Positions 17,792 to 31,286 of a DNA stretch of 64,000 bases are shown here, piece after piece. Below the pieces are notes generated by a model. That model had not been told where the DNA came from and made no database searches. It saw only the letters and a program-made list of their open reading frames with translations. A program made the translations under genes and the position numbers. Position 1 is the stretch's first letter. Every line of letters starts with the position of its first letter. The DNA is from an uncultured Eudoraea sp. GTDB lineage: Bacteria; Bacteroidota; Bacteroidia; Flavobacteriales; Flavobacteriaceae. The stretch covers positions 1 to 64,000 of the forward strand of contig CAMYIE010000006.1 of the NCBI GenBank assembly GCA_947258405.1, written 5' to 3'.

Positions 17792-18487
17792 ATGAATACT
17801 TCAGTTATTTACCGCTTTTTTGTCGTATTGCTTACCGTCTTTTGTACACTACATACTTATGGGCAAAAAAAGGCAAAACTGACTGCTGAAGAAAAAGAAA
17901 AAATCAAAAATTCTAAAGTCCTGGTAGTAAGGTATGAAGCCCCTCCTCTCTCATTTATGACACCAAAAGATGCGGCAGGAGCCGGTTTGATCGCTAGCGC
18001 TACGAAATCTGACGTTGTCGAAAACAGAGAGCGTTTCAGATATTATCCCTCGGCAAGATTACAAAAGAAAGTCGACAGTCTCTTCCGGGCAGAAGACTTA
18101 ATCACGGAGGTGGAGATAAAAGATGACGCCTATGAGTTTATGATGCCTGCAAAACTCAAAGACCTGGACCGTCATAAAGATGTTGATGCGGACTATATTA
18201 TGGAGATCATTGTACCATTAATGGGCTGGCGGGCTACTTATGGGGTAACCAAATGGAGGACATACCATTTAAACCTCGGTGTTGAGGTGAGGATTATACG
18301 TAAAAGCGATATGGCGATGGTATGGAAAAACAATGTGGGGTATGGCGGTTATAATGACAAAAACATGAGATTTCACATTACAGAACTCGAAGAAGGAGGT
18401 AAAGAATTAATAGATTCTAAACTTAATGTGATGGTCCTTGAGAGCAGCAGAAAACTGGTTGAAGACTATGTGAAGGCCAAAAAATAA
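17792..18487 (+). CDS. secreted protein of unknown function
   Basis: Not recognised. The 231-residue product begins with a Sec signal peptide (FFVVLLTVFCTLHTYG, cleavage expected after about residue 24, at GQ), followed by a highly charged segment and then a mixed alpha/beta domain with the repeated pattern of a small outer-surface or periplasmic protein (for example DADYIMEIIVPLMGWRATYG at about 130-150). No cysteine pair or catalytic motif is seen. The gene stands alone between two convergent neighbours. The 230-bp region before it holds a TTTG at 17741 but no matching -7 element. Confidence 0.65.
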   Translation: MNTSVIYRFFVVLLTVFCTLHTYGQKKAKLTAEEKEKIKNSKVLVVRYEAPPLSFMTPKDAAGAGLIASATKSDVVENRERFRYYPSARLQKKVDSLFRAEDLITEVEIKDDAYEFMMPAKLKDLDRHKDVDADYIMEIIVPLMGWRATYGVTKWRTYHLNLGVEVRIIRKSDMAMVWKNNVGYGGYNDKNMRFHITELEEGGKELIDSKLNVMVLESSRKLVEDYVKAKK

Positions 18488-18504
18488 TGTACCTATAAGT
18501 CGTC

Positions 18505-18583
18505 GTGAGTGTCACGCTGTTTAATTGAGGAAGTATCAAGGATGAACTTGTAAATGCGAAGTCCGAAGCGTGAGATATTATGG
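18505..18583 (+). repeat. degenerate left end of a four-helix-bundle cassette (REP-like plus heptamers)
   Basis: GTGAGTGTCACGCTGT near 18505-18520 resembles the core of the REP palindromes at 23.5-26.9 kb. GAGGAAGT follows and then six consecutive 7-base units (18535-18576), of which GCGAAGT, CCGAAGC and GTGAGAT are close to the ACGAA(A/G)T heptamers and their terminal ACGAGAT at 25744-25785, followed by ATTAT as there. The order REP, GAGGAAG, heptamers, GAGATTAT is the same as at 25708-25788. No four-helix-bundle coding sequence follows. Strongly decayed; moderate to low confidence. Confidence 0.35.
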
Positions 18584-18680
18584 GGTACGAGGAGACAGGG
18601 ACCAAGTACAGACTACTTTCGTTTTGCAAATGATGTGGTGGATATTCTGGCGATTAGTTTGATAGGGATTCCTATGATGA

Positions 18681-19823
18681 TCACCTCAATTCGCGAATTG
18701 CCCTTACCTTAAATTTCCGGTGTTCTACATTTTTATTGTAATGATATGATGTATTACCATCTTTAAATCTTATTAATCTGGCCTGGTATTCATCATAAGC
18801 AGTTGCACTCCAATACAGTTCATCGGTAAATTCCCCAATATTGGCTGCGCCCCGTCCTATAGTCTGGTACATGAGGTATAATTCATCGAATGATGGTAAT
18901 CTCCATCCTTCCCCCCATTGCTCGTGAATTTTGACAGCATCTTGCCATGGCATAGGGCCGGCGTCTTCAAGATGTGCAATCTTACCCGTATTGTTAGCAG
19001 GATCAATTGTAAAAATAATTCCCCCGTCGTAGATGTCACCAACTCCTAATTTAGTGGAAGTCGTTGCCTTATTTGAAGATTCGATACTCGTTTTTTTCAA
19101 ATCATTCGGATCCTCTAATTCGGCTTCTTCAATTATTGGCAGTGCGGGTTGCTGTGCTTCGGGAGGCGAATTAAATTTTGAAATAGCCCATATTGCTGCC
19201 ACAAAAAGTAATATTGCCAGTGATCCCCTGAGTATTAATTTTTTTAAGCTACTACCTTTTCCCACTTGTGTTCCTGCAGCTTTCATCTGGGCTTTGGTTG
19301 CAAGTTTTCTTTGCCTTTCTCCTTCTGCAAGACGTTTGGCCTCCATTTCTTCATTATGTATTTTCTCGCGTCCTGCTCTTTGATTCGTTGCCGTACCTAA
19401 TTTTTCTACATGCCTTACTTCTTCCCCTGTAATTTTTTCAATTTCTTCTTTTTTCTTGCCTTTTTTCTTCTCCTCCGCTTTTTTAGTAGCTGATACTTCT
19501 GCTTTTTCTCTGATTCTTTTTTCGTTCTCGGCTATTCTTCTCACCATAGCTTCCTCCCATAATCTATCCTCTTCGGCTCTTTTTTTGGCCGATGCTTCTG
19601 CTTCTTCCCTTATTCTTTTTGCTACCGCGGCCCTTCTTTTGGTTTCGGCCTCCTCCGCGGCTTCAGACACTTCCCCTGCAACGCTATCTGCTTCTCCTTT
19701 TTCTGTATTACTGACCTCTATTTGGTCTTCATTTTGATCTTTGGCCACTTCCTTTTCTCTTTCATTTTTAAATTCCTCCTGATCCATATTTTCTACAATT
19801 GGTGTATTTCTCTTCCGACTCAT
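18681..19823 (-). CDS. membrane-anchored coiled-coil protein with C-terminal DUF1566 (Lcl-like) domain
   Basis: A 380-residue protein. Residues about 1-190 are extremely rich in Glu, Lys, Ala and Arg, with repeated EEA-type heptads, and are predicted to be a long coiled coil. One TM helix follows (LRGSLAILLFVAAIWAI, about 193-209). The C-terminal domain (about 255-380) is of the DUF1566 type: GDIYDGGIIFTID, then WRLPSFDELYLMY and YWSATAYDEYQ, ending RAIRELR. The family often occurs on surface or periplasmic proteins of Bacteroidota. If the N-terminus is cytoplasmic, the DUF1566 domain is outside. Function unknown; the low-complexity N-terminus makes homology there unreliable. Confidence 0.75.
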   Translation of the reverse strand: MSRKRNTPIVENMDQEEFKNEREKEVAKDQNEDQIEVSNTEKGEADSVAGEVSEAAEEAETKRRAAVAKRIREEAEASAKKRAEEDRLWEEAMVRRIAENEKRIREKAEVSATKKAEEKKKGKKKEEIEKITGEEVRHVEKLGTATNQRAGREKIHNEEMEAKRLAEGERQRKLATKAQMKAAGTQVGKGSSLKKLILRGSLAILLFVAAIWAISKFNSPPEAQQPALPIIEEAELEDPNDLKKTSIESSNKATTSTKLGVGDIYDGGIIFTIDPANNTGKIAHLEDAGPMPWQDAVKIHEQWGEGWRLPSFDELYLMYQTIGRGAANIGEFTDELYWSATAYDEYQARLIRFKDGNTSYHYNKNVEHRKFKVRAIRELR

Positions 19824-19990
19824 TTACTTAGCAAAATCATAATATATTCTAGAGTCCCGGCATGTTGGTCTAATACGCTTAGAATAGGCTTTCTATCTTA
19901 TCTAAGATAGAAAATAATAACATCAATACATAATGTCATCCGGCTAATCCCAGTTCTTAACTGGCTGTCAATGTGTTGTGTATGAATGAA

Positions 19991-20048
19991 CTACCTCCAA
20001 GCACCCTTCCCTGTCCAAACTCCTGAATTAGATTGCTTCTTCGATATC
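19991..20048 (-). pseudogene. ghost 1: decayed copy of the last codons of comM
   Basis: On the minus strand this stretch reads D-I-E-E-A-I-stop-F-R-S-L-D-R-E-G-C, closely matching the real comM C-terminus (HIAEAIQYRSLDREGWLG at 27166-27220), with the DNA alignment continuing to the stop codon (CTA at 19991 on the plus strand). It lies in the 329-bp gap between the DUF1566 gene and the acyl-CoA synthetase gene. No other part of comM was seen beside it. The rest of the gap holds nothing I can support. Confidence 0.6.
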
Positions 20049-20152
20049 AGGATTATTTTAAGTATTCGTCTGGTAGAAAAATTCTGTAAATTGGAGGGTA
20101 ATATTGCCATCATAGAATTCAGTTGATAATATTAAAAACAGACATATAAATT

Positions 20153-21853
20153 ATGACAGCCATTAGTTATAGCTGCGGGCTTTGTGACAAACCATTATTA
20201 GGAATCACCATTGGTGATAAATTTGACGAGATAGTAAACCGGTTCCCGGACAATGAAGCACTGGTTGTACCTCATCAGAATAAGAGATTTACATATTCCC
20301 AGCTAAAAGTGCAGGTGGATGAATGTGCAAAAGCTCTTTTGGCCCTTGGGATTAAGAAAAGAGACCGAGTAGGCATCTGGAGCTCAAATCGTTATGAGTG
20401 GACTGTTTTACAGTTTGCCACTGCTAAAGTGGGTGCTATTTTGGTCAATATAAACCCTTCATATCGCATCCACGAACTGGAATATGCCTTAAATCAGGCC
20501 GGTTGCAGAATGTTGGTCATCGCCGATAAATTCAAATCCTCTAATTATGAAAAGATGATTATGGAATTGGCTCCTGAACTGGCCTTTTCGGATATTGGTA
20601 AACTACATGCCTCTATCTTACCGGTACTGACAACGGTTGTTTCGTTGTCTGGTAATCCTCCGAAGGGAATATTATCATGGTCTGCCTTTATGGGCAAATC
20701 AGAATTATGTTCCACTAATATGCTGGAAAAAAGGCAAAAGGAACTAGACTTTGACGATCCGATAAACATTCAATATACCAGTGGCACCACCGGATTTCCC
20801 AAAGGTGCAACATTGAGCCATCATAATATTCTGAACAACGCCTATTTTGTAGCGAGCACTATGGAATTAACGGAAAAAGATCGTGTTGTAATACCCGTAC
20901 CCTTATATCATTGTTTCGGCATGGTTCTCGGGAACCTGGGGTGCATGACACATGGAGCTACAACGATCTATCCGAGTGAAGGCTTCGAACCACTTGCTGT
21001 CTTAAAAGCAGTGGAAAGAGAAAAAGCAACGGCTTTATATGGGGTGCCAACGATGTTTATCGCTGAACTAGAACATCCCGAATTCGATGATTTTGACTTG
21101 AGCAGCCTGCGGACCGGAATTATGGCGGGTTCTCCATGCCCTGTAGAAGTGATGAAAAAAGTGCACTCGCTGATGCACATGAGCGACGTTCAGATAGCTT
21201 ATGGAATGACTGAAATTAGTCCTGTATGCACCCAAACCAAAATGGGAACACCACTTGAAAAACAGATAAGTACCGTTGGCCAGGTCCATCCCCATCTGGA
21301 GGTAAAGATTATTGATCATGAAACCGGACAGGTGGTTCCTCTAGGTACCACAGGGGAACTTTGCGCCAGAGGGTACAGTTTGATGCTGGGGTATTGGGAT
21401 AATGAAAAACAAACCAAAATTGCCATTGATTCCGCCCGATGGATACATACCGAGGATCTTGCCACAATGGATGAGGAAGGGTATATTAATATCGTAGGGC
21501 GTATTAAGGATATGATTATCAGAGGAGGTGAAAATATATATCCGAAAGAAATTGAGGAATTCCTGTTCGATCATCCCAAAGTTAGCGATGTAAAGATAAT
21601 TGGTGTTCCGGATGCTAAATATGGAGAGGCGGTAATGGCCTGGGTCAAATTAATAGAGGGTGAAAAGGCCAGTGCCCAAGAGTTGACAGATTTCTGTAAA
21701 GGCAAGATCGCACATTTTAAGGTACCGAAGTATTTTAAATTTACCGATCATTTTCCAATGACGATTACCGGGAAGATCAGAAAGGTGGAAATGCGTCAGA
21801 TGAGTATTAAGGAATTGAACTTAGACAGTGTATCGGACATAGAAATTGCATAA
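20153..21853 (+). CDS. fatty acyl-CoA synthetase (AMP-binding family)
   Basis: Activates a fatty acid to acyl-CoA through an acyl-adenylate. The P-loop [18 protein letters not shown] lies at about residues 204-221, the adenine-binding YGMTEISP near 347, and the C-terminal [20 protein letters not shown], with the conserved lysine of TGKIRK near the end. At 566 residues it fits the medium/long-chain acyl-CoA synthetase group (ACSF2-like). ATG at 20153. Single gene. The length of its substrate cannot be told from sequence. Acetyl-CoA synthetase is excluded by length and motif details. Confidence 0.9.
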
Positions 21854-22163
21854 TCAACCCCGAAGTTCCTGCTAGCTTCTAACCCTTGGTCTCCCAGGCG
21901 TCCTAATATGCATAACTCCATACCCACCATATGTGTGGAGAATATCTTCTTTGCACTGCGCAAGCAGGGAGCCTATTGATCAGTAAATTGCCACCTTAAA
22001 GACCATATTTTAGAATTGGCTTCCATCGACAGAGCATCCCTTAATTATCGTAGAATTAGCTGTTTATATCGTTGGTAATATCCTTTATATAAATGCGTAG
22101 GTGAAATATATTGTAAGTAAAATCGTTCTAGATTCTTAACACCAATATAAAAAACAAATAATT
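21854..22163. other. 310-bp intergenic region with an imperfect hairpin
   Basis: CTCCATAC (21915-21922) and GTGTGGAG (21932-21939) form a 7 of 8 bp inverted repeat; it could be the transcript end of the acyl-CoA synthetase gene, though no U-tract follows. The plus strand also holds a short frame from ATG 21908 of 23 codons without recognisable features. Nothing else in the gap can be supported. Confidence 0.25.
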
Positions 22164-22430
22164 ATGTTTAAGAAATGTATTTTAGGAATTTCCATTGTAG
22201 CTGCTATGGCATTAGGTTTTAGCAGTTGCTCCGACGACGATGGCGATGATAGAATTTGTGAAAGCTGTGATCTGCAGGGCCAAAATGTAGAGATATGCGA
22301 TAATGGAGACGGAACCTATACCATTTCAGCTGCCGGTCAATCCGAAACGATCACGGAAGAAGAGCTTGAAGGGGTCACACCAGAAGAGTATATTGATTTG
22401 ATCTGCAGTTTCGATGATTTTATTCTTTAA
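22164..22430 (+). CDS. small lipoprotein
   Basis: An 88-residue protein with a lipoprotein signal: GISIVAAMALGFSSCSDDDG, lipobox cysteine at residue 22. The Asp-rich stretch right after the cysteine is the kind of acidic segment common in exported lipoproteins of Bacteroidota and may support surface export. The mature part has four cysteines that may form disulfides and a GDGTYTISAAGQSETI beta-hairpin. A strong terminator follows. Single gene; no homology-based function can be given. Confidence 0.75.
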   Translation: MFKKCILGISIVAAMALGFSSCSDDDGDDRICESCDLQGQNVEICDNGDGTYTISAAGQSETITEEELEGVTPEEYIDLICSFDDFIL

Positions 22431-22460
22431 GTTATTAAGTAACTAAATATCAGAATTTAG

Positions 22461-22488
22461 CCCAACCTCGACCAGGTTGGGTTTTTTT
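22461..22488 (+). terminator. rho-independent terminator after the small lipoprotein gene
   Basis: CCCAACCT (22461-22468) and AGGTTGGG (22474-22481) form an 8-bp perfect stem with a CGACC loop, followed by seven T at 22482-22488. It lies 31 bp after the stop of the lipoprotein gene. Confidence 0.9.
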
Positions 22489-22707
22489 ATTTAATCCCCT
22501 ACCAACTTTAGCTTAATCCTCTTTCCTTGGTAGAATTCTTTTCAGGGATAACAAAATTCCTATAGGTAAGATTAAAAGGCTCTATAAGTGATAAGTGCTA
22601 TTTCTGTGACTCTGTCCCATACCTGTGATTGTCAATTAAATAATTCACTAACTTGGGCTGATACATGTTTTCTAAGAAATACATGGAAGCACTAACCAAT
22701 TCTTTTC

Positions 22708-23460
22708 ATGATAGGCTTTTTCCGTAAAATACGTAAGCAACTAGCCGACACTAATAAACCCTTAAAATATTTTCGATATGCTTTGGGCGAGATCGTTCTG
22801 GTGGTCATCGGTATTTTGATAGCCCTCTCTATCAATAACTGGAATCAAAACAGGATAGCCCTTGAGGAAGAAAGGAGATGGTATACTAAAATGATAGGGG
22901 ATCTTAAAATTGCTCTTGAAAACATCGAGTTTGAATCTGATAGGTTTCAAGGCTACCAAATTATTCACAGGCATATCTATGATGAAACCAAAGGAAGAGC
23001 CTCTTATGATCCTGAAGTTAAATACCAGGCCATACGCTGGAATCCCGAATATATAGCTGTAATAACAGAAAATCATGGGGGTGATATATCTAAATTCATA
23101 AATGAGCGGGTAAGAGAGGAATTGAATGAGTATATAAAAGAAGAAAGATTAGCCATAAAGGCCTACAGCGACTTTAACCGAATAAAACTGGAAATTGTAC
23201 GGCCCTTTGCGGATAAACACGGATTTATGGATTCTGAAATTGTCTTTGACCAGGTGGCATTGAATTGGAAAAATGTCCGTGAGAAAGAAGTTAATATTAT
23301 AGACCATGAAAAACTAAAGGCTCAGTATGACTCTGAAGAATTTGATCAAATACTCTCCACCTTATGGATTCAATGCGGTTATGTAATATATCGGCTTGAA
23401 GTTCAGAAAGAACAGATTTATAAGCTGAAACAGGTTCTGGAAGAGGAATTGATCAATTAA
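22708..23460 (+). CDS. DUF6090-type membrane protein
   Basis: A 250-residue protein with the family N-terminus IGFFRKIRKQLADTNKPLKY, then FRYALGEIVLVVIGILIALS as the single TM helix (about residues 25-46) and a mainly helical, charged C-terminal part. This pattern is common and often repeated in genomes of Flavobacteriaceae and corresponds to DUF6090; its function is unknown. ATG at 22708. No neighbour suggests a role. Topology: short cytoplasmic N-terminus, large periplasmic domain is likely. Confidence 0.8.
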   Translation: MIGFFRKIRKQLADTNKPLKYFRYALGEIVLVVIGILIALSINNWNQNRIALEEERRWYTKMIGDLKIALENIEFESDRFQGYQIIHRHIYDETKGRASYDPEVKYQAIRWNPEYIAVITENHGGDISKFINERVREELNEYIKEERLAIKAYSDFNRIKLEIVRPFADKHGFMDSEIVFDQVALNWKNVREKEVNIIDHEKLKAQYDSEEFDQILSTLWIQCGYVIYRLEVQKEQIYKLKQVLEEELIN

Positions 23461-23498
23461 ACCAGCGCGGTTTGATATCAAAGAAGCAAGAGATCCAT

Positions 23499-23534
23499 CT
23501 ACCCCAACCACCCTTCTCTATCCAGGCTCCCCTG
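23499..23534 (-). pseudogene. ghost 2: last codons of comM beside REP A
   Basis: The minus strand reads QGSLDREGWLG and a TAG stop (23499-23501). It matches the comM C-terminal RSLDREGWLG and stop over eleven codons. Upstream, on the minus strand, REP A begins at once (23534). This is the shortest but best-conserved of the comM tail copies. Confidence 0.6.
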
Positions 23535-23559
23535 CTAGCGTGAGCGTTACGTTCGTGAC
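23534..23559 (+). repeat. REP-like palindrome A
   Basis: A 26-bp copy of the palindrome seen next to the RAYT gene; it keeps GCTAGCG, GAGCGTTACGTTC in the stem-loop and GTGAC at the end. Ten bases separate it from the left heptamer array (23570-23590) of the internally deleted cassette. Confidence 0.75.
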
Positions 23560-23569
23560 CTGTGGAAGG

Positions 23570-23733
23570 ACGAAATACGAAGTGCGAGATTATAATTATT
23601 GGTTTTGTTTGACCTTGTTTTTCCGGACAGTTTTAATTGATGCTACTACTATCGCCAAAAGTACGTACGCATCTCGTTTTAACAATTTGATTTCTTTTCC
23701 CTCATACTTCCAACTTCCTACCTCCAACTTCGA
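23570..23733 (-). pseudogene. internally deleted four-helix-bundle cassette
   Basis: It keeps both ends of the cassette. Left: three heptamers (ACGAAAT, ACGAAGT, GCGAGAT, 23570-23590). Middle: 23596-23703 encodes on the minus strand the C-terminal ~36 residues of the four-helix-bundle protein, in frame and without stops (EIKLLKRDAYVLLAIVVASI, ending KNKVKQNQ and TAA), against EIKNLKQEANELLAIVVASI in the intact gene. Right: four degenerate heptamers (ACTTCCA, ACTTCCT, ACCTCCA, ACTTCGA, 23706-23733) abutting comM ghost 3. The N-terminal two thirds of the gene are absent. The surrounding gap (23461-23828) holds only this module, its REP and the comM ghosts. Confidence 0.75.
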
Positions 23734-23778
23734 CTAGCCTAACCTCCCTTCCTGATTTAGTATCCGGTATTTAATTGC
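23734..23778 (-). pseudogene. ghost 3: last codons of comM beside the deleted cassette
   Basis: The minus strand reads AIKYRILNQEGRLG and TAG (stop at 23734-23736), aligned without gaps to comM AIQYRSLDREGWLG and stop. As at the real comM, four heptamer units directly abut the stop codon (23706-23733 here, 27138-27165 there). Confidence 0.65.
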
Positions 23779-23828
23779 TAAACTAATGTGATGTCTTATT
23801 TTTCCAATAATACACTTTGCACCTGGGA

Positions 23829-24188
23829 TCAGGTTTTGTTGATCTTTTCGTTTGCTTCCCGAAGCCGGTTCGACATTTTTTCCAGCAACCTGTAGGCCAG
23901 GGAAGAGTCGCGCTTTATAGACTTAAAGAAATTTCGCTTGTCAATAGTAAGTATCCTGACCTCCCCGGCGGCCCGGACGGTACATGACCGCACATCGTCC
24001 TCAAAAAGGCCCATTTCTCCGAAAAAGTCCGACTCGCTCAGTTCCGCTACCTTGGTCTCCCTTTCAGGCGTTTCATGGATCACATCCACCATGCCTTCCT
24101 GGATCACATAAAGGCAGCTACCCTTTTCTCCCTGTTTAATAATGATCTCTTTGTCCTTATAGAGTTTGCCGAGCTTCTTGCTTTTCAT
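23829..24188 (-). CDS. stand-alone cyclic nucleotide-binding domain protein
   Basis: A 119-residue protein that consists of one CNBD: KDKEIIIKQGEKGSCLYVIQ in the beta-roll, the phosphate-binding cassette FFGEMGLFEDDVRSCTVRA (about residues 57-75) with the Glu and Arg that contact the cyclic phosphate and ribose retained, then the C-helix. There is no DNA-binding domain, so it is not a Crp-type transcription factor. Its ATG at 24188 lies inside the end of the upstream oxidoreductase gene (32-bp overlap), so the two are co-translated. Likely senses a cyclic nucleotide and may regulate the flavoprotein; this is inference. Confidence 0.85.
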   Translation of the reverse strand: MKSKKLGKLYKDKEIIIKQGEKGSCLYVIQEGMVDVIHETPERETKVAELSESDFFGEMGLFEDDVRSCTVRAAGEVRILTIDKRNFFKSIKRDSSLAYRLLEKMSNRLREANEKINKT

Positions 24189-25542
24189 GAGTGTGGCGAT
24201 TATTTATTGATAAGTTCGATGTTAAGGTGCTTCTGATGAGTCCAAAAAGAAGACCAGGATGAAGGAAGCGCCTAAAGATATTTCTGTAACCCGCACTGCC
24301 TGTGAAAGTATCCCAAAGGGCAGAACTCATCCTTAGAGTCGAATGCTCTTTTGCTTGTTCTTTTCCAACCTGGTAGAGCAACCCTCTTTTTAATACAGCA
24401 GATTTCTGAATGATTCTTGTGACCCGGAAGATCCATTTTCCAACCCAGTTGTCGCTGTCCAGGTCCCTGCATATAGGTTTATAATATTTTTCAAAGTGCC
24501 TTTTGCTTATCCCTTCAAAAACTGCAGGACTCGCTGCAGCTTTTGCCGTTATGAAAGCGGCACCGATCCCATTCTTGTACAATTTGGAAGAGGCCGAGTC
24601 GCCGATCAGCACCACCCGATCTGCATAAGCATTATTGCCTTGTTTTATATTGATATAGGGATAGCACTGACATGGAAGAGCTCTTTTTACCGGAAAATCT
24701 TCGGGGAAACAAGACCTTACCTGATGGGAGTTGATAAAATTCTGTACGATATCTTTATCTATGTCTTTGCCCAATAATACGAGGGTTATATAATTGTATT
24801 TGGGTATTAGTGCTCCGAAGGTAATTTGTGGAAGATCCAACAGGAAAACATGCATGGAACTTCCCAGGCTTCTCACAATATCCCCGGGCTTCATTATAAA
24901 TTCGCTGATGTAAGCGCGGGTAACTTCTGGCAACGAATAGGAAGGACAAATACCTTTAAAAAGTTCTAATGCATTGATGTTGAGCCCAACAGCTCCAATT
25001 ACCAAATCATATTTTCGCATATCTGACTTTGAACACCCCACCATCACCCCGTTCTCCGTCCTTTCCAGGAGGGTTACTTTTTCAGGGATTAGCTTCGCGC
25101 CCTTCTCCTGGCAAAGACCCAGCAAGTAATTGTCAAACCCCTTCAGACTCTTGTCTAAGCAGCCTCTCGGCCCAGATCCCCTAAAAACGGCCGCAATACG
25201 ATGTTCATCAGTCGGGGCATGGATGCTCCTTTTCCCCTGCTCGGTATGCATAGTATAGGTGTTGATCCCGCGTTGTATAATCTCTGAAGGGATCACCAAA
25301 CCATCTGCAGCCAATTCCTGAACCAGGGATTCAGATACAATGCCCCCGCAGTGATTGCACCCTGAAGAACCTATCTTTGTGAAATCTTTAGCTTCAAAAA
25401 TATCGAGTTCAAGGTCAAGGCCGAATCTTCTGGCGTACTCCAGGGCATAGTAGCTAAAAAAACTTCCGGCAGGACCGCCCCCAATGACCGCAATGCGGGA
25501 GCCGTCTGTCAATTCCATCCCCTTCGTATTTTTAAAAGACAT
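24157..25542 (-). CDS. FAD-dependent oxidoreductase, geranylgeranyl-reductase-like
   Basis: A flavoprotein of about 461 residues. The FAD-binding GGGPAGS lies at residues 21-27, and the second conserved FAD box is VLIGDSASSKLYKNGIG. Between them is an unusual GCNHCGG (about 61-67) with two cysteines, which could be redox-active or bind metal. The ATG at 25542 (MSFKNTKG) was chosen; the open frame runs 47 codons further up, but that part lacks protein-like conservation and ends at a TA-rich region. It overlaps a cyclic-nucleotide-binding protein gene by 32 bp. Resembles geranylgeranyl reductase or lycopene-cyclase-type flavoproteins; the substrate is unknown. Confidence 0.82.
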   Translation of the reverse strand: MSFKNTKGMELTDGSRIAVIGGGPAGSFFSYYALEYARRFGLDLELDIFEAKDFTKIGSSGCNHCGGIVSESLVQELAADGLVIPSEIIQRGINTYTMHTEQGKRSIHAPTDEHRIAAVFRGSGPRGCLDKSLKGFDNYLLGLCQEKGAKLIPEKVTLLERTENGVMVGCSKSDMRKYDLVIGAVGLNINALELFKGICPSYSLPEVTRAYISEFIMKPGDIVRSLGSSMHVFLLDLPQITFGALIPKYNYITLVLLGKDIDKDIVQNFINSHQVRSCFPEDFPVKRALPCQCYPYINIKQGNNAYADRVVLIGDSASSKLYKNGIGAAFITAKAAASPAVFEGISKRHFEKYYKPICRDLDSDNWVGKWIFRVTRIIQKSAVLKRGLLYQVGKEQAKEHSTLRMSSALWDTFTGSAGYRNIFRRFLHPGLLFGLIRSTLTSNLSINNRHTHEKQEARQTL

Positions 25543-25707
25543 AATAGTTACTTCTGGAAATGACTTGAAAGAGTCGATGATGAGGCATGTTAAATATGGA
25601 ATATGCGCCCGCAACCCAAACGCATTCAAGCCCGTAGGATAAAAATAGGTCCTTATATTCCAAGATAGTATGATATATATCATCCATAAGTGTCTATTAC
25701 TTCCCCA

Positions 25708-25733
25708 GCTAACGCAAGCATCACGCTCGTGAC
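25708..25733 (+). repeat. REP-like palindrome B
   Basis: 26 bp, same orientation as A and C: GCTAACGCAAGC, then ATCACGCTCGTGAC. It is followed by GTGAGGAAGG and the left heptamer array of the intact cassette. Confidence 0.75.
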
Positions 25734-25743
25734 GTGAGGAAGG

Positions 25744-25785
25744 ACGAAATACGAAATACGAAGTACGAAATACGAAGTACGAGAT
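25744..25785 (+). repeat. left heptamer array of the intact cassette
   Basis: Six tandem 7-bp units: three ACGAAAT, two ACGAAGT and a terminal ACGAGAT, ending six bases before the stop codon of the four-helix-bundle gene (25791). The reverse complement of the unit, ACTTCGT, borders the other side of the gene. Confidence 0.85.
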
Positions 25786-25790
25786 TATAA

Positions 25791-26153
25791 TTATTGGTTT
25801 TGTTTGACCTTGTTTTTCCGGGCAGTTTTAATTGATGCCACTACGATCGCCAAAAGTTCATTTGCCTCTTGCTTCAAATTTTTGATTTCTTTTCTACCCG
25901 GGTCAAGGACCTCTTGAAATAATTCTAACCAATAAATGGATTCGTCTGCTTCTTCTTCTACAATTTTAAGTTTATTTATAAAATCTGCTGATGACCTAGC
26001 CCGTTGGGAGGCTCTATAATTGGCTCCTACTGAACTTGAACATCTTATTAGCTGTCTGGCCCATGCATCAAATTCTCGTGATTTGGGAATATTTTTGCAT
26101 AACTTCCAACACTCAACTGCAAATCTTTTAGTTCTAAATTTCAAATCTCGCAT
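25791..26153 (-). CDS. four-helix-bundle protein (23S rRNA intervening-sequence protein family)
   Basis: A 120-residue protein of the four-helix-bundle/IVP family (also related to Avd of diversity-generating retroelements): KRFAVECWKLCKNIP in helix 1, FDAWARQLIRCSSSVGANYR in helix 2, then SADFINKLKIVEEEADESIY and the C-terminal LLAIVVASIKTARKNK. No reverse transcriptase is nearby, so a DGR role is unlikely. It is bordered by inverted heptamer arrays (25744-25785 and 26199-26212) and by REPs B and C. Two further partial copies of the gene lie at 23596 and 26946. Function of the family is not established; binding of nucleic acid is possible. Confidence 0.88.
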   Translation of the reverse strand: MRDLKFRTKRFAVECWKLCKNIPKSREFDAWARQLIRCSSSVGANYRASQRARSSADFINKLKIVEEEADESIYWLELFQEVLDPGRKEIKNLKQEANELLAIVVASIKTARKNKVKQNQ

Positions 26154-26198
26154 TGATCTTTTATAATTTCTTTTCTAAATATTGTCACCAAAAATTTT

Positions 26199-26212
26199 AC
26201 TTCGTACTTCGT
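26199..26212 (-). repeat. right heptamer array of the intact cassette
   Basis: Two ACTTCGT units followed by ACTTCCCC, then REP C at 26221. It is the reverse complement of the left array; together they could form an imperfect stem of about 14-18 bp in RNA around the gene. Confidence 0.75.
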
Positions 26213-26220
26213 ACTTCCCC

Positions 26221-26246
26221 GCTGGCGCGAGCGTCACGCTCGTGAC
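26221..26246 (+). repeat. REP-like palindrome C
   Basis: 26 bp beginning GCTGGC; its core GCGAGCGTCACGCTCGT folds into a 7-bp stem with a TCA loop (one G:T pair). It lies 27 bp from the 3' end of the RAYT gene, in opposite orientation to D and E on the other side. Confidence 0.85.
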
Positions 26247-26272
26247 ATTACAGCTAGCAGCAATTTGATCTT

Positions 26273-26845
26273 TCAAAGGTCCATCATACCTAAGTGCATT
26301 CCTTTATTATCGATTTTGAGAATAGTTTCATCATCTGCATAATTTCTCGCACTGCTGTATTTCCATTCAACCGGGTTCGTTACGAATCCTTGTTCTACAG
26401 GATTATTATGTATATAATCAATCTTTTGCTTTAAAACTTTATCGCTCCACAATTCTATCGGTTTATTGTGATGCTGCCAAAACTGTCTTTTTTTCACATT
26501 ACTATTTTTACTGCCAGCACGTTCCATCATCAATAGCAACCATTCTTTTCTACTTTCTTGCAGATTTTCTTGTATAGCTTTTATAATTTTTCTTGCCGTA
26601 AACCCTTTAAAATCCCTTAATAATCCAGATGGATCTTCATTATCTGATCGAAAGATCATATGAATATGACTAGGCATAAAACAATAGGCAAATACCTCCA
26701 TGCCCTTTTCTGCGCGACAATATGTAATACTTTCCTCTAAAATTGAAAAATACTCTTGCCTGGTAAATACATCAATCCAATAAACTGTTGCCAAACTCAC
26801 GAAATAGGCTGCAGTTGGATTTTTGAATTTATATTTTCTACTCAT
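26273..26845 (-). mobile_element. REP-associated tyrosine transposase (RAYT, Y1 HUH family)
   Basis: A 190-residue single-domain Y1 transposase. The HUH motif is in AYCFMPSHIHMIF (about residues 53-65), and the catalytic tyrosine is in KIDYIHNNPVEQGF (Y142-Y143 region), followed by WKYSSARNY, which is usual in RAYTs. ATG at 26845. It appears complete. REP C lies 27 bp downstream and REPs D and E lie 41-97 bp upstream in inverted orientation, the arrangement of a REPtron. RAYTs are usually single-copy and act on REP palindromes rather than moving as IS elements. Cutting of these particular palindromes is inference. Confidence 0.92.
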
Positions 26846-26885
26846 AATTGATTGTCTTTTAATGAATTACTTTGTGAGTGATATA

Positions 26886-26942
26886 GGCACGAGCATGATG
26901 CTCGCGCCAGCATATGGGCACGAGCATGATGCTTACGCCAGC
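26886..26942 (-). repeat. REP-like palindromes D and E, tandem
   Basis: Two 26-bp copies in minus orientation at 26886-26911 and 26917-26942, start to start 31 bp. D contains GGCACGAGCATGATGCTCGC; E differs by CTTACG in place of CTCGCG. They lie before the RAYT start and are inverted relative to REP C. E directly borders the truncated four-helix-bundle copy. Confidence 0.85.
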
Positions 26943-26945
26943 ACA

Positions 26946-27087
26946 TGATAATGCGTGCCAATTGAACTTGAACATCTTATTAGCTGTCTGGCCCATGCAT
27001 CAAATTCACGTGAATTTGGGATGTTTTTGCATAACTTCCAGCAGTCAATTGCAAATCTTTTAGTGCTTATTTTCAGAACTTGCATCT
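26946..27087 (-). pseudogene. 5' fragment of a four-helix-bundle gene cut at REP E
   Basis: From ATG 27087 the minus strand reads MQVLKISTKRFAIDCWKLCK and then FDAWARQLIRCSSS, close to the intact copy (MRDLKFRTKRFAVECWKLCK, FDAWARQLIRCSSS). Similarity fades after about residue 45 (SIGTHYH against SVGANYR), where REP E begins, and a TAA follows. The rest of the gene is missing on this side. The heptamers 27138-27165 lie upstream of it and abut the comM stop. The gap 26846-27165 is filled by REPs D and E, this fragment and the heptamers. Confidence 0.8.
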
Positions 27088-27137
27088 TTCTATTTTATTT
27101 CCGGTTCTAATTGTCGCAACAGAAAATGGCACATCGT

Positions 27138-27165
27138 ACTTCGTACTTCCCACCTCGCACCTCAA
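27138..27165 (-). repeat. heptamer array abutting the comM stop codon
   Basis: Four 7-bp units on the plus strand (ACTTCGT, ACTTCCC, ACCTCGC, ACCTCAA) end exactly at 27165; the comM stop codon begins at 27166. The same junction, four units then a stop, occurs at comM ghost 3 (23706-23736). Confidence 0.7.
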
Positions 27166-28701
27166 CTAACCTAACCAACCTTCCCTATCCAAACTCCTGT
27201 ACTGAATGGCTTCAGCAATATGATGATCTGCTACTTCATTCGTCTTCTCCAAATCCGCTATCGTACGTGCCAATTTTAGAATACGATCATAAGCCCTGGC
27301 AGTTAAGTGAAGTCGATCCATAGCACTTTTTAGAAGTTTCAGTGATGCGCTGTCAAGTATGCAAAACTCTCGTATTTGTTTGGTGTTCATTTGTGCGTTG
27401 TAATGGATATTTTCAAAATGACTAAAACGGAAGGTTTGCAATTCTCTGGCTGCCAAAACTCTGCGCCTAATTTCCAGACTTTGCTCCCCTTTGCGCTTGT
27501 CTGAAAGCTTTTCAAAGGGAACCGGGGTCACCTCGATATGCATATCGATCCTGTCGAGTAATGGGCCGGATATCCTGCTGAGATAGCGTTGCATTTCGGC
27601 AGGGGTAGATGATAGTGGCGCATCAGGATTCCTGAAATAACCACTGGGGCTTGGATTCATACTGGCTACCAGCATAAAACTGCAGGGATAGGTGATGGTG
27701 AATTTTGCCCTGGAGATGGTTACTTCCCTGTCTTCCAGAGGCTGTCTCATTACCTCCAACACACTGCGTTTAAATTCCGGTAGTTCATCCAGGAAAAGCA
27801 CGCCATTATGCGAAAGTGAGATCTCCCCGGGCTGGGGATAGGTCCCCCCCCCTACTAAGGCAACGTCAGAAATAGTATGATGCGGACTCCTGAAAGGGCG
27901 TTCATGCATCAGACCATGCTGCTTTAATTTCCCAACCACCGAATGTATTTTTGTGGTTTCCAATGCCTCCCTGACGGTCATAGGCGGCAGGATTGTTGGT
28001 AATCGTTTAGCGAGCATAGTTTTACCCGAACCAGGCGGACCGATCAGTAAGATATTATGCCCGCCGGCAGCAGCTATTTCCATACAGCGCTTCACACTTT
28101 CCTGGCCTTTGACATCACTAAAATCGTGTGTAGAAACCACCGCCTCAGTCTGGGAACGATCTGCAAAACCTGATGTGAAGGGTGTAATACTGTTGTGTTG
28201 CTTTAAATGATCGATCACCTCGGTAATATTTGAAACACCGTACACATCCAGATCACCTACGATTGCGGCTTCTTCAGCATTAGCCATAGGTAGTATAAAT
28301 CCTTTATACCCATCCTCCTTTGCTTTAATAGCAATAGGAAGCGCCCCTCGTATTGGTTGCAGGCTGCCATCGAGTGATAATTCACCCATGATCAGGAATT
28401 CTTCAAGTTTAGGTGCAAGTATCTGACCGGAAGCCGAAAGTATTCCCATTGCCAGAGGGAGGTCATAAGCAGCACCTTCCTTGCGCAGGTCTGCAGGGGC
28501 CATGTTGATGGTGATTTTCTTGCCCGGAATTCTGAAACCATTGTTTTTCAGGGCTGCTGCAATCCTGAAGTTGCTCTCCTTAATAGCATTGTCGGGCAGG
28601 CCCACCAGATGATAGCCAATACCCCGGTCAATATTGACTTCTATTGTAATAGTAGTGGCCTCAATCCCAAATACCGCTCCACCATAAACCTTTGATAACA
28701 T
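27166..28701 (-). CDS. comM: YifB/ComM family Mg-chelatase-like AAA+ helicase
   Basis: A 511-residue hexameric AAA+ protein; in competent bacteria ComM is a branch-migration helicase in natural transformation. Order: N-terminal Lon-like S5 domain (about 1-170), AAA+ core with Walker A GPPGSGKTMLAKRL (about 221) and Walker B LFLDELPEF (about 297), then the C-terminal Mg_chelatase_C domain ending EAIQYRSLDREGWLG. ATG at 28701. Complete. The stop codon directly abuts a heptamer array, and at least three decayed copies of its last codons occur up to 7 kb away (19991, 23499, 23734). Mobile islands in other bacteria use comM as a target, which may be relevant. Confidence 0.95.
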   Translation of the reverse strand: MLSKVYGGAVFGIEATTITIEVNIDRGIGYHLVGLPDNAIKESNFRIAAALKNNGFRIPGKKITINMAPADLRKEGAAYDLPLAMGILSASGQILAPKLEEFLIMGELSLDGSLQPIRGALPIAIKAKEDGYKGFILPMANAEEAAIVGDLDVYGVSNITEVIDHLKQHNSITPFTSGFADRSQTEAVVSTHDFSDVKGQESVKRCMEIAAAGGHNILLIGPPGSGKTMLAKRLPTILPPMTVREALETTKIHSVVGKLKQHGLMHERPFRSPHHTISDVALVGGGTYPQPGEISLSHNGVLFLDELPEFKRSVLEVMRQPLEDREVTISRAKFTITYPCSFMLVASMNPSPSGYFRNPDAPLSSTPAEMQRYLSRISGPLLDRIDMHIEVTPVPFEKLSDKRKGEQSLEIRRRVLAARELQTFRFSHFENIHYNAQMNTKQIREFCILDSASLKLLKSAMDRLHLTARAYDRILKLARTIADLEKTNEVADHHIAEAIQYRSLDREGWLG

Positions 28702-28951
28702 AATACGCCATGTTCATCAACACTAAGATAAGAAAGAAATGATTCATATAGAATATTATCTATAATATATGCGATTTAAATCTATATATGAAGTAATTAA
28801 TTATGAGGTTTAAAGCATCAATTATAGAAACTAGTCTTGCTAGAGCACGGCACGTTGGTTGATTTCGAAGACAATACCTGATATCGGATAAATTTAACCG
28901 CCTAGCAAATAGGACAGTTATTTAAACTAATAATTGGTTAAATTTGGGGTC

Positions 28952-29431
28952 ATGCATTTTCTAAAACTAATATTTTCCATAACGCTGATCAGCACATGCT
29001 TTGTTGGTGAAGCTCAATCTTTACGATATCAGATTTATGAAGAATCGAAAGGATGGCATCCCTGGGTAAAAGAGAATACTATAGTTGGGGAAAGAGGCAA
29101 AAGGATCGAGGCGATTAAGATATTACCCTTCGATTTTCCTCCTGGAGCTTCTCTTCAGTACAGGGTTCATATTAAAACTGATGGGTGGCAACCCTGGACC
29201 AATGCCGGGGAAACCGCGGGTACTGAGGATGAAGACCGCAGAATTGAGGCCATAGAAATAAAGCTTACCAATTTTCCAGGGCAATCGGTTTGTTATTGGA
29301 TCTGGACGGGATACAGGGAAAGCACTACCAGAGATGTTCCCAGAAAGTATGAAGCCTGTGATGGTCAGTTGGCAGGAACAACACAAAGAAGAAAACCTCT
29401 TGAGCAGCTGAGAATTTGGCTCACTCCCTGA
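28952..29431 (+). CDS. secreted protein with two ChW-type repeats
   Basis: A protein of about 159 residues with signal peptide LKLIFSITLISTCFVGEAQS. The mature part contains two repeats that resemble clostridial hydrophobic-with-conserved-W (ChW) repeats: YQIYEESKGWHPWVKENTIV with GKRIEAIKI, and YRVHIKTDGWQPWTNAGETA with RRIEAIEIKL; a third, weaker unit with VCYWIWTGYRE ends the protein. ATG 28952 was chosen over a TTG at 28934, since the signal peptide starts there. ChW repeats are mostly known from surface proteins of Gram-positive bacteria. Single gene; probable extracellular binding protein. Confidence 0.75.
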   Translation: MHFLKLIFSITLISTCFVGEAQSLRYQIYEESKGWHPWVKENTIVGERGKRIEAIKILPFDFPPGASLQYRVHIKTDGWQPWTNAGETAGTEDEDRRIEAIEIKLTNFPGQSVCYWIWTGYRESTTRDVPRKYEACDGQLAGTTQRRKPLEQLRIWLTP

Positions 29432-29495
29432 TCATTACAAAAAATCCACTATTTTGAATGGAGCGATAGGACTATTGGATAATAGAATGTAGCTT

Positions 29496-31286
29496 TTATT
29501 CTACAGTAAATTGTTTTCTAAGCGACACCGGTTCCCCTTCTGAACTATATCCTTTTAGTTCCACCTCGAATTTTCCCTTGACATCTGATGTAGAAAATCT
29601 GTAGACCGTGTAATCATTACCAAGTGCGATATCTGGTACCCAAAAAAGCTGATATCTGAAATCAGGTATGCGGGAAGCATCTGAATCATTAATATAATCT
29701 GCGAAATAATAACGCCTAACAGGCTCGGGCCTATCGACTTCTCTTCTCAATAAATGTTCTCTATAAAGCGTTTTATAGAATTCGCCAGATTTGGTTTCCA
29801 GTGAAAGCAGTCCCTGAAAAATTTGTGATCCAACTAAATAACGGTCACGGGAAAGTGAAATCGATCTGATTTCTTTGGAATTATAATTCACTAAATTCTT
29901 GTGATCCTGAATAAACAATCCATCCACAAAAACCATGGGAAGTAATCCTCCTGCATCGAGGTAACCAACGAGAGGGCGCACACCAAAGGTAGGGTCCTTT
30001 TCGCCGTTCTCATCGATCCAGGCATTATCAACGATCTCTACCATGGTCTCTCTTAATGTATTGAATCGTGTATAGTCGTCCAGGAAAAATCGCTGCTGAT
30101 AGTTCCTGTAAAATGGAATATCTTCTGCCGGGTTTACAATAGTGTCCGATTTGGCAATGGCATAAGCATTTTCAATCTGGTTGTGAATGCTACGTTCCAG
30201 AATCGCTGCTTCCAGATCATCAGATAAAGTGAATTCAACAAAATCTTCAGGTTGGTAGTCCGGTACTGGTGATGGATCGAGTTGTAATTCATACTGTTCC
30301 CTGTCTTTGCTCAAAAATTGAAATACTGCCTGAGTACTACTTATGGGCGTATCCAGATTATAATAAAATCTGCCATCTGCATTAGATTGTACAATTTCAA
30401 CTACGAAAGGATCGCCTGGTAAAGAGAGTATAACTTTAATTCCTGCAGCTGGTTGTCCATCGTTTCGGTTCACCACGCGCCCACTGAATAACTCACCCCG
30501 TAATTCTGGCATAGTACCCGGATTGCTCATGTTCCGTGTCCAGAAGCTGCCATACTTGCTCCATACTTCTATTGAAGGCTCTTGCATTTGTGGGAAGCTA
30601 CTGTCCACCTTACGCACAGTAAGGGAATAATGACCACCAGTCGCCGTATATCTAAGTGGCTCAAGCGTGATATTCACTGGTGAACGGGTATTAAATGAGG
30701 TATCGTTGAGTGTCATGGATACGATCTGATCTCCCTTCGATTCGAATTGTAAAATTTCGGCCTTCCTGGGCACGGCCGTTACGGTGGTGCTATCAGGATT
30801 TATACTGTCTTTTGAAATTTTTTCAAGATATGTCTCTGCCGTTGCCTTATAGGGGTTTATGATCAGTAAGTTGGATTCAAAATACTGGTTTTCGGCCCTG
30901 CTCAGCATCCAGTTGGTATAGGCCTTTAACTTATAACTCCCGGTCGGCAACTCGGCCGGAATAGAAAAATCTCCGGTTCCGATACCGTTATTTAATCTAA
31001 TCTTATGCCTGAAAATCGTTTCACCCTGGCTGTTATAAAGCTGGACATACCCAATTTTGCTGAGGTCACTCAGTTTTTTTTCATTAAGATTGAGACAATA
31101 TAATTTGTAGTAGAGTCTTTCTCCAGCAAATAAAAGCGTATTACTCTGATGAAGGTAAATACCTTCCTGAGCAATTATACCAAAACCCTTAGGACCAGTG
31201 GCATTATTCTGACCCAATACCGGCATGGTTATGAACGTGGCCCATAAAAGCGTCACTAAAAATAAATTGCTTACTTGTCTCAGCAT
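29496..31286 (-). CDS. secreted MG2-like (macroglobulin-type) protein of the TonB receptor operon
   Basis: A 596-residue exported protein; signal peptide LFLVTLLWATFITMPVLGQ. The N-terminal part (about 40-150) has the beta-sandwich pattern of an MG2 domain (GIYLHQSNTLLFAGERLYYK, then LPTGSYKLKAYTNWML), and a carboxypeptidase-regulatory-like segment follows (FSGRVVNRNDGQPAAGIKV, about 270). Such proteins accompany TonB-dependent receptors and DUF4249 lipoproteins in Flavobacteriaceae; their role is unknown. It is the last gene of the operon, 10 bp after the DUF4249 gene. The domain calls are from sequence pattern and are less secure than the operon link. Confidence 0.75.
   Translation of the reverse strand: MLRQVSNLFLVTLLWATFITMPVLGQNNATGPKGFGIIAQEGIYLHQSNTLLFAGERLYYKLYCLNLNEKKLSDLSKIGYVQLYNSQGETIFRHKIRLNNGIGTGDFSIPAELPTGSYKLKAYTNWMLSRAENQYFESNLLIINPYKATAETYLEKISKDSINPDSTTVTAVPRKAEILQFESKGDQIVSMTLNDTSFNTRSPVNITLEPLRYTATGGHYSLTVRKVDSSFPQMQEPSIEVWSKYGSFWTRNMSNPGTMPELRGELFSGRVVNRNDGQPAAGIKVILSLPGDPFVVEIVQSNADGRFYYNLDTPISSTQAVFQFLSKDREQYELQLDPSPVPDYQPEDFVEFTLSDDLEAAILERSIHNQIENAYAIAKSDTIVNPAEDIPFYRNYQQRFFLDDYTRFNTLRETMVEIVDNAWIDENGEKDPTFGVRPLVGYLDAGGLLPMVFVDGLFIQDHKNLVNYNSKEIRSISLSRDRYLVGSQIFQGLLSLETKSGEFYKTLYREHLLRREVDRPEPVRRYYFADYINDSDASRIPDFRYQLFWVPDIALGNDYTVYRFSTSDVKGKFEVELKGYSSEGEPVSLRKQFTVE

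Follow-up and report, generated by a model that had tools for sequence, protein, structure and literature searches.

The window analysed here is a stretch of 64,000 nucleotides from an uncultured Eudoraea sp. of the Flavobacteriaceae (assembly GCA_947258405.1, contig CAMYIE010000006.1, positions 1 to 64,000), and it contains a small genetic unit, called the cassette in this work, in which a gene of the S23/IVP family is located between two inverted arrays of 7-nt repeats (the arms). This cassette is very probably a relocating unit of the type of the intervening sequences (IVS) of 23S rRNA, bounded by its arms, 0.42-0.5 kb long and situated at the 3' ends and junctions of protein genes. The arms are tandem repeats of period 7, complementary to each other, that travel with the gene, and the block that changes place includes them. 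The cassette inserts at gene ends, where a new stop codon can be provided by an arm. The S23 protein is under purifying selection and the mismatches between arms look neutral. Taken as a whole, with the mechanism proposed below, a relocating DNA cassette of the IVS type is the likely explanation.

The cassette and its broken copies

The window carries one intact unit and two broken ones. The intact unit (unit B, 25737-26218, minus strand) is organised as arm, S23 gene, arm, and the whole block is homologous to cassettes found at other sites (blastn). Its gene (25791-26153, minus strand) encodes a four-helix-bundle protein of 120 aa that belongs to the S23/IVP family, with scores of 58.1 bits for PF05635 (cut-off 33.8) and 81.6 bits for TIGR02436 (cut-off 24), and whose sequence matches PDB 2rld_A with an E value of 2.7e-16. 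The title of a work on the homologue Xcc0516, cited in PMC3936711, describes a pentamer of four-helix bundles. The 5' arm (26198-26217, minus strand; GAAGTACGAAGTACGAAGTA on the gene strand) carries two exact heptamers, ACTTCGT and ACTTCGT, at about these positions, and pairs over 20 nt, at 95% complementarity, with 25760-25779 (inverted repeat I3). The 3' arm (25744-25785, minus strand), read directly from the sequence, is made of six heptamers (ACGAAAT, ACGAAAT, ACGAAGT, ACGAAAT, ACGAAGT and ACGAGAT) and corresponds to the strongest lag-7 array of the window (25736-25782).

Unit A (23565-23733, minus strand) retains both arms and S23 residues 87-120 (match at 23599-23700) and has lost the middle by internal deletion; it is 88% identical to unit B over 135 nt (direct repeat D2). 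Unit 3 (26946-27165, minus strand), 80% identical to unit B over 211 nt (D1), has its 5' arm touching the comM stop codon, keeps S23 residues 1-58 (match at 26912-27085, with one stop inside) and breaks off at a pair of repetitive extragenic palindromes (REPs). The initial annotation of this DNA had described the same three units, namely an intact one with six heptamers, a four-helix-bundle gene and two ACTTCGT heptamers, a second one with REP A, both heptamer ends and the C-terminal third of the gene, and a third one with the 5' part of the gene and heptamers abutting the comM stop, and sequence, open reading frames (ORFs) and repeats bear out this description.

The heptamer arrays of the window are not a product of chance, since the dimer ACGAARTACGAAR, with two mismatches at most, has 17 matches in the window against 4.4 expected, a number reached in none of 100 shuffles. 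In the whole genome (3.27 Mb), the exact dimer is found at six places, all inside the window units. Thus, the exact heptamers of this genome are present only with the gene and not genome-wide without any link to it, an outcome that the initial annotation had named as fatal to the cassette idea. The neighbours of the cassette are comM and a reductase-like gene, and no Rfam match was found in 18000-30000, so the cassette lies outside rRNA; the IVS-like layout that had been proposed for it, an S23 gene between complementary ends outside rRNA, is supported.

Sites of the cassette and its relocation

Relatives of the cassette were obtained in one scan of named genomes, which provided 80 loci. According to the site labels, 57 of these 80 loci are hosted by the his operon, at the hisH-hisA, hisB-hisH, hisA-hisF and dinB-hisF junctions, and, of the others, some adjoin comM (in five species, counting that of the window), some follow another gene group and the rest are at single sites. 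In four cases (L050, L055, L075, L120) a single his operon has two S23 copies at different junctions. The presence in Bacteroidota his operons of unnamed "alien" genes has been described previously (PMC8305728). The search proposed in the initial annotation, for the gene at many sites in relatives with heptamers at its edges, had a positive result, and the gene is not restricted to one ancestral position devoid of heptamers. The association with comM stands for the window clade but not in general, since it is seen in only one clade of five species and the his operon is the commoner site.

In the tree of S23 proteins the comM group is a single clade (95*) nested in a his-operon clade, and the 13 site classes need 18 changes, the least possible number being 12 and the mean of shuffled labels 51.5. 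The site labels are thus clustered on the tree, which indicates that the unit is inherited for long spans and moves now and then. The borders of the moving block are given by pairwise DNA comparison. The his operons of Winogradskyella (cassette at hisA-hisF) and Algibacter (cassette at hisH-hisA) are collinear and the only displaced piece is a block of 433 columns, whose ends are the arms beside the stop and start codons. The window unit aligns with that of Eudoraea L118 (85%, 485 nt) and with that of L042 (88%, 482 nt) in blastn alignments that start and stop at the arms, and it matches the Eudoraea and D16 units over 25737-26218, with the arms in and the REPs out. Two Nostoc plasmids have 418 nt in common and nothing else in the 2.7-kb stretches compared. 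Junctions of the his operon measure 414-640 nt with the unit versus 0-200 nt for most empty junctions, and in G103, the one other genome of the window genus that was compared, comM is present, the unit is absent and no heptamers follow the comM stop. These results support the mobile or duplicating cassette of the initial annotation and show that unit and arms relocate as one block.

The site of insertion can be read in HisH. The tail of this protein after the HPEKS motif has a median of 18 aa in the presence of the cassette and 14 aa in its absence (p 2e-6, a generous value because the sequences are related). The extra residues are read from the arm (LEVKS, LEVRN and, in one genome, EIRNTKYEIRNTKYEIRNTK; EIRNTKYEIRNTK is also among the arm-coded tails). 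Therefore, insertion placed the left arm at the end of the coding sequence, where it supplied a new stop and overwrote the original hisH stop codon.

In Bacteroidota, the unit is nearly always downstream of a co-directional gene, on a background co-orientation of 74-83%. A first count, based on our own ORF calling, gave 41 of 41 co-oriented cases, and strict co-orientation was later dropped as a rule, since annotated cyanobacterial plasmids gave 5 of 17 cases with an antisense upstream gene. Given this background and these plasmids, co-orientation is a trend of Bacteroidota only. No promoter of its own could be pointed out in the cassette, which is probably read from the upstream gene. Three cassettes of cyanobacterial plasmids run antisense to the genes on either side, and two of these are inserted between cas2 and cas1 (L188 and L287, Nostocales plasmids). 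In a Pseudanabaena plasmid (L191) the cassette adjoins csx2/cas1, and in plasmids of Gloeocapsa, Chlorohelix and Dolichospermum (L183, L184, L283, L284) it is found within defence-like operons (DUF1156 / Swt1-HEPN; helicase / DNA methylase). Eighteen S23 genes in cas loci had already been noted (PMC3936711).

S23 could also be regarded as an ordinary host gene with a role in the his operon, whose sites differ by reshuffling of the operon and whose arms are neutral microsatellites. The strong clustering of the site labels, i.e., mostly vertical descent, would agree with this, as would the ratio of non-synonymous to synonymous substitution (dN/dS), which goes down to 0.013. However, it is the S23 block alone that is displaced in otherwise collinear his operons, arm scores are far above those of controls in four independent sets (see below), and genomes carry several copies, the window has broken ones and copies on plasmids lie beside unrelated genes, all of which makes an ordinary host gene very unlikely. 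The dN/dS values are 0.12-0.24 for the window gene against four relatives and 0.01-0.28 in 14 usable S23 pairs (the pair L102/L112, with a ratio of 1.0, was left out due to a frame error), indicating that the protein matters while the arms drift. Purifying selection on S23 is compatible with a protein that assists the element as well as with one that serves the host.

Complementary arms: RNA stem or DNA copying

S23 genes of other Bacteroidota, Cyanobacteriota, Chloroflexota and a Treponema likewise lie between complementary arms of period 7, with different unit sequences. In 81 loci, autocorrelation is raised at lags 7, 14, 21 and 28 in both flanks, but neither in the gene nor 1.1-1.4 kb off. 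An arm score, obtained by comparing the upstream flank with the reverse complement of the downstream flank, was higher at S23 loci than at 190 control genes in each of four sets, namely close Flavobacteriaceae (79 loci, p 3e-24), other Bacteroidota (30 loci, p 2e-10), ten plasmid-borne genes from Cyanobacteriota, Chloroflexota, Spirochaetota and, in one case, Bacteroidota (p 5e-7), and all seven S23 genes present in 800 kb of two genomes, the extent of the unbiased scan (p 1e-5); these p-values overstate significance, the loci within a set being related. Six further Nostocales plasmid cassettes scored 59-80, with about 30-40 nt of nearly perfect complementarity.

The best lag was 7 in 74 of 90 arms, versus 10 of 166 hairpins genome-wide in the same two genomes, and a few units show period 6, 8 or 9. 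The heptamer itself differs by unit (AAGTACG, TTAGAAG, AATTCGT, GGAAGTC, AAAATTC, TTAGATT) and is common to close relatives at different places. A fixed heptamer recognition sequence was rejected on these grounds, as unit sequences and some periods differ: the sequence of the heptamer is not fixed, its period and complementarity are. The pattern ARRTNNR, four times repeated, was also tried as a genome-wide marker and discarded, since it is too purine-rich and its reversed control matches equally often.

Heptamers are not exclusive to S23 loci. Short heptamer hairpins devoid of S23 occupy empty his junctions in several genomes, including hisA-hisF of other Flavobacterium, and in G023 there are many 7-mer, 8-mer and 11-mer arrays without S23 nearby. 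In 400 kb of this genome (contig 1, 780-1180 kb, L212-L231), tandem arrays of period 7, 8 and 11 number 18, 32 and 35, respectively, and are mostly distant from S23. Almost every Flavobacterium species has its own small hairpin at the hisA-hisF junction (L254-L282), whether 7-mer, 8-mer, GTAGAGACG palindrome or CTTTGCGAATCTCTGTG type, giving this junction the look of a hotspot of hairpin elements. The gene-less hairpins, together with the 7-mer and 8-mer arrays of G023, could mean that heptamer hairpins came first and spread independently as intergenic repeats, S23 genes entering their loops or persisting there. This order of events is quite unlikely: the moving block contains the arms, which therefore travel with the gene; only few paired inverted arrays lacking S23 exist genome-wide; the window genome has no exact dimer apart from S23; and unit A followed the opposite route, in which the gene was lost from the unit. 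Unit A is a visible step from the cassette towards a gene-less hairpin.

The initial annotation had suggested that a transcript could fold into a stem with the gene in the loop, and had pointed to RNase III, which excises 23S IVSs. Under such an RNA-level explanation, the element would behave like a 23S IVS, with RNase III cutting the stem and thereby excising the cassette or dividing the polycistronic mRNA, and with selection acting on the RNA stem. Its layout and size match those of the Coxiella IVS (PMC4990558), and its position, in Bacteroidota nearly always behind a co-directional gene, would be suitable. The folding of the window transcript that the initial annotation had recommended gave a stem formed by the arms with the gene in its loop (z -3.4), REPs and heptamers both contributing to this value. 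However, arm mismatches show no wobble excess (159 G-U versus 180 A-C, the expected proportion being 167:172), and the arms of a unit fit each other no better than they fit the arms of sister genomes within a site group (z -0.8), so that compensatory covariation is absent. An excess of arm fit between loci (z 8.9) disappears when permuted inside site groups; therefore, it represents the difference between clades, i.e., between insertions, and continuing co-evolution of the arms was rejected. With the three plasmid cassettes that are antisense to both neighbours also against it, the RNA-level explanation appears rather unlikely, and the RNase III idea is left without support.

Since there is neither G-U excess nor covariation within groups, the arms are read here as products of fold-back at the DNA level and not as a maintained RNA stem. 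For such copying of the arms the chances are about even. During a move, the strand of the unit would fold back on itself and one arm would be templated from the other by DNA synthesis slipping in steps of 7 nt, at or around insertion; fresh arms would be perfectly complementary and decay later. A Nostoc unit (L289) has a non-heptamer insert in both arms, complementary at 40 of 40 nt, and plain heptamers are seen in L286, a relative 88% identical to it; to judge from these sequences, one arm of L289 seems to have been copied from the other. The S23 protein might bind the folded arms or the loop and assist the replication or repair enzymes of the host. That S23 is an accessory of movement, and not a host gene, is possible, with chances somewhat short of even. 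Gene-less heptamer hairpins at such junctions would be products of internal deletion, as in unit A. A broader and fairly improbable extension is that S23 proteins drive their own class of mobile DNA with freshly made complementary ends of 7-nt repeats, the 23S IVSs, the gene-less hairpins of Bacteroidota and at least part of the cyanobacterial heptamer repeats (e.g., the trnL P6b motif) being products of the same machinery.

Several observations weigh against a relocating, arm-bounded cassette. The S23 tree was built on 119 columns and 42 of its 78 forks are open. No move was observed among strains of a single species, the search for a target duplication was negative, and no enzyme that moves the cassette was pinpointed. 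The absence of covariation within site groups is a further point. Arms are absent at two S23 genes on gut contigs labelled as phage, and in the wider Bacteroidota 13 of 30 loci pass the 99% control level and 17 are below it, so that arms are often degraded or absent. The existence of arrays without S23 indicates that heptamers do not need the gene, which could be a late guest of pre-existing hairpins. Finally, the very strong purifying selection in some his-operon groups (dN/dS 0.013) would also suit a host gene that rarely moves.

Surroundings of the units and comparison with known systems

comM (27166-28701, minus strand; assigned from its ORF) is also the neighbour in L042, L043 and L044, and its 3' end is the insertion neighbourhood of this clade. 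The comM tail copies reported in the initial annotation are real. Unit A is flanked on its 3' side by a copy of the last 32 nt of comM (23499-23530, minus strand; local alignment score 34, no mismatches in the pattern search) and, directly before it, by a weak, degenerate copy (23734-23796, minus strand) whose alignment score of 26 is near noise level. The last 30-60 nt of comM recur away from this gene in the window, at 19999-20053 (minus strand) and 59235-59261 (plus strand) besides 23499-23530, and fragments of the tail were detected in relatives (L042 3468-3525; L044 5142-5190; L118 419-472 and 2758-2808; L233 860-910). In L042, the S23 unit is flanked by the comM tail on either side, 683 bp apart. 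The 3' end of comM may be a repeated attachment-like site.

The REPs of the region are REP A (23530-23559), beside unit A, REP B (25704-25733), which adjoins unit B from outside and beyond the homologous block, and REP C (26217-26246), which has an inverted match to 26888-26911; the three form direct repeat D4. A tandem REP pair (26881-26942, direct repeat D5) interrupts unit 3. Between REPs there is a gene for a REP-associated tyrosine transposase (RAYT) of 190 aa (26273-26845, minus strand; NF047646, 96.1 bits, cut-off 80), one of two RAYT genes in the window genome. These elements could be taken to indicate that, in the window lineage, RAYT and REPs move the cassette as a REP-bounded composite: REP B and REP C flank unit B, REP A flanks unit A, a RAYT gene is in the cluster, and the Eudoraea and D16 units also adjoin a REP. 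However, the homologous block stops at the arms, inside the REPs, the flanks inspected of his-operon and Nostoc cassettes show no REP of the window kind, and a composite could account only for local duplication in the comM clade; it is therefore highly improbable. Because the homology shared with other species does not extend beyond the arms (25737-26218), the REPs are neighbours that lie outside the unit, and REP B and REP C, which the initial annotation had included in the cassette, are not parts of it.

The importance of an IVS-like unit outside rRNA is that it makes the question of how rRNA inserts move askable. The origin and movement of IVSs have been open since these sequences were first described, and their function and origin are called unclear (PMC4990558); if units of this kind pass freely from one ordinary gene to another, it can be put to the test. 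In that case, cultured flavobacteria and Nostoc would provide a test bed, in which the his operon is an uncomplicated locus, unit borders are precise and occupied as well as empty sites occur naturally. The widely annotated and unexplained "four helix bundle protein" is placed in a definite genetic context, and a possible source emerges for heptamer repeats that have been known for decades. Mobile DNA with ends of fixed period and free sequence would be unusual. The literature search, with most subscription papers outside its scope, found no paper linking S23 genes outside rRNA to heptamer arms.

Like the cassette, REPIN/RAYT systems consist of intergenic inverted-repeat units with an associated small gene and gene-less derivatives, in multiple copies per genome. 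However, S23 is not a nuclease family, the arms of the cassette are 7-nt repeats without fixed sequence, and the moving block excludes the REPs. The Avd protein of diversity-generating retroelements has a four-helix-bundle fold homologous to that of S23 (Avd 4DWL is related to PF05635 2GSC; PMC10053308), but the reverse transcriptase (PF00078) expected of such retroelements is absent from the whole window genome, which is 99.99% complete.

The heptamer repeats of cyanobacteria and Beggiatoaceae (TDNGATT/NNTGAGT in trnL P6b; TAACTGA arrays) resemble the arms in their period of 7 and, in trnL P6b, in forming complementary hairpin arms, although no S23 gene is reported with them. TDNGATT is the class I motif of the P6b stem of the Nostoc trnL intron, whose origin was described as unknown (PMC4476775). 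The arms of 3 of 16 S23 cassettes (L182, L183, L184) contain tandem TDNGATT pairs, and the farther flanks contain none. TAACTGA arrays were also considered as S23 arms and are not supported as such, the TAACTGA array of G131 being 140 kb from any S23 gene.

The closest known system is the 23S IVS of Leptospira and Coxiella, with which the window unit shares the protein family, a gene in the loop between complementary ends, a size of 0.43-0.48 kb and sporadic presence. The Coxiella IVS is about 0.43 kb long, with a 28-bp stem, an S23 ORF in the loop and RNase III cleavage in the stem, and tandem GACAGAT heptamers, whose copy number varies between strains, directly precede the S23 ATG (PMC4990558). 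In the window unit, too, heptamers precede the S23 start (GAAGTAC-type), and the ends that enclose the ORF are 95% complementary and place it in the loop of the predicted RNA fold. In contrast to the 23S IVS, the arms of the cassette vary by element, it inserts at gene ends and operon junctions, and it shows no signature of RNA pairing. It is not classified as a 23S IVS because it does not occupy the defining place, inside an rRNA gene. The cassette is a variant of the 23S IVS kind outside rRNA, and the Coxiella heptamers independently match the period-7 feature of the arms found here.

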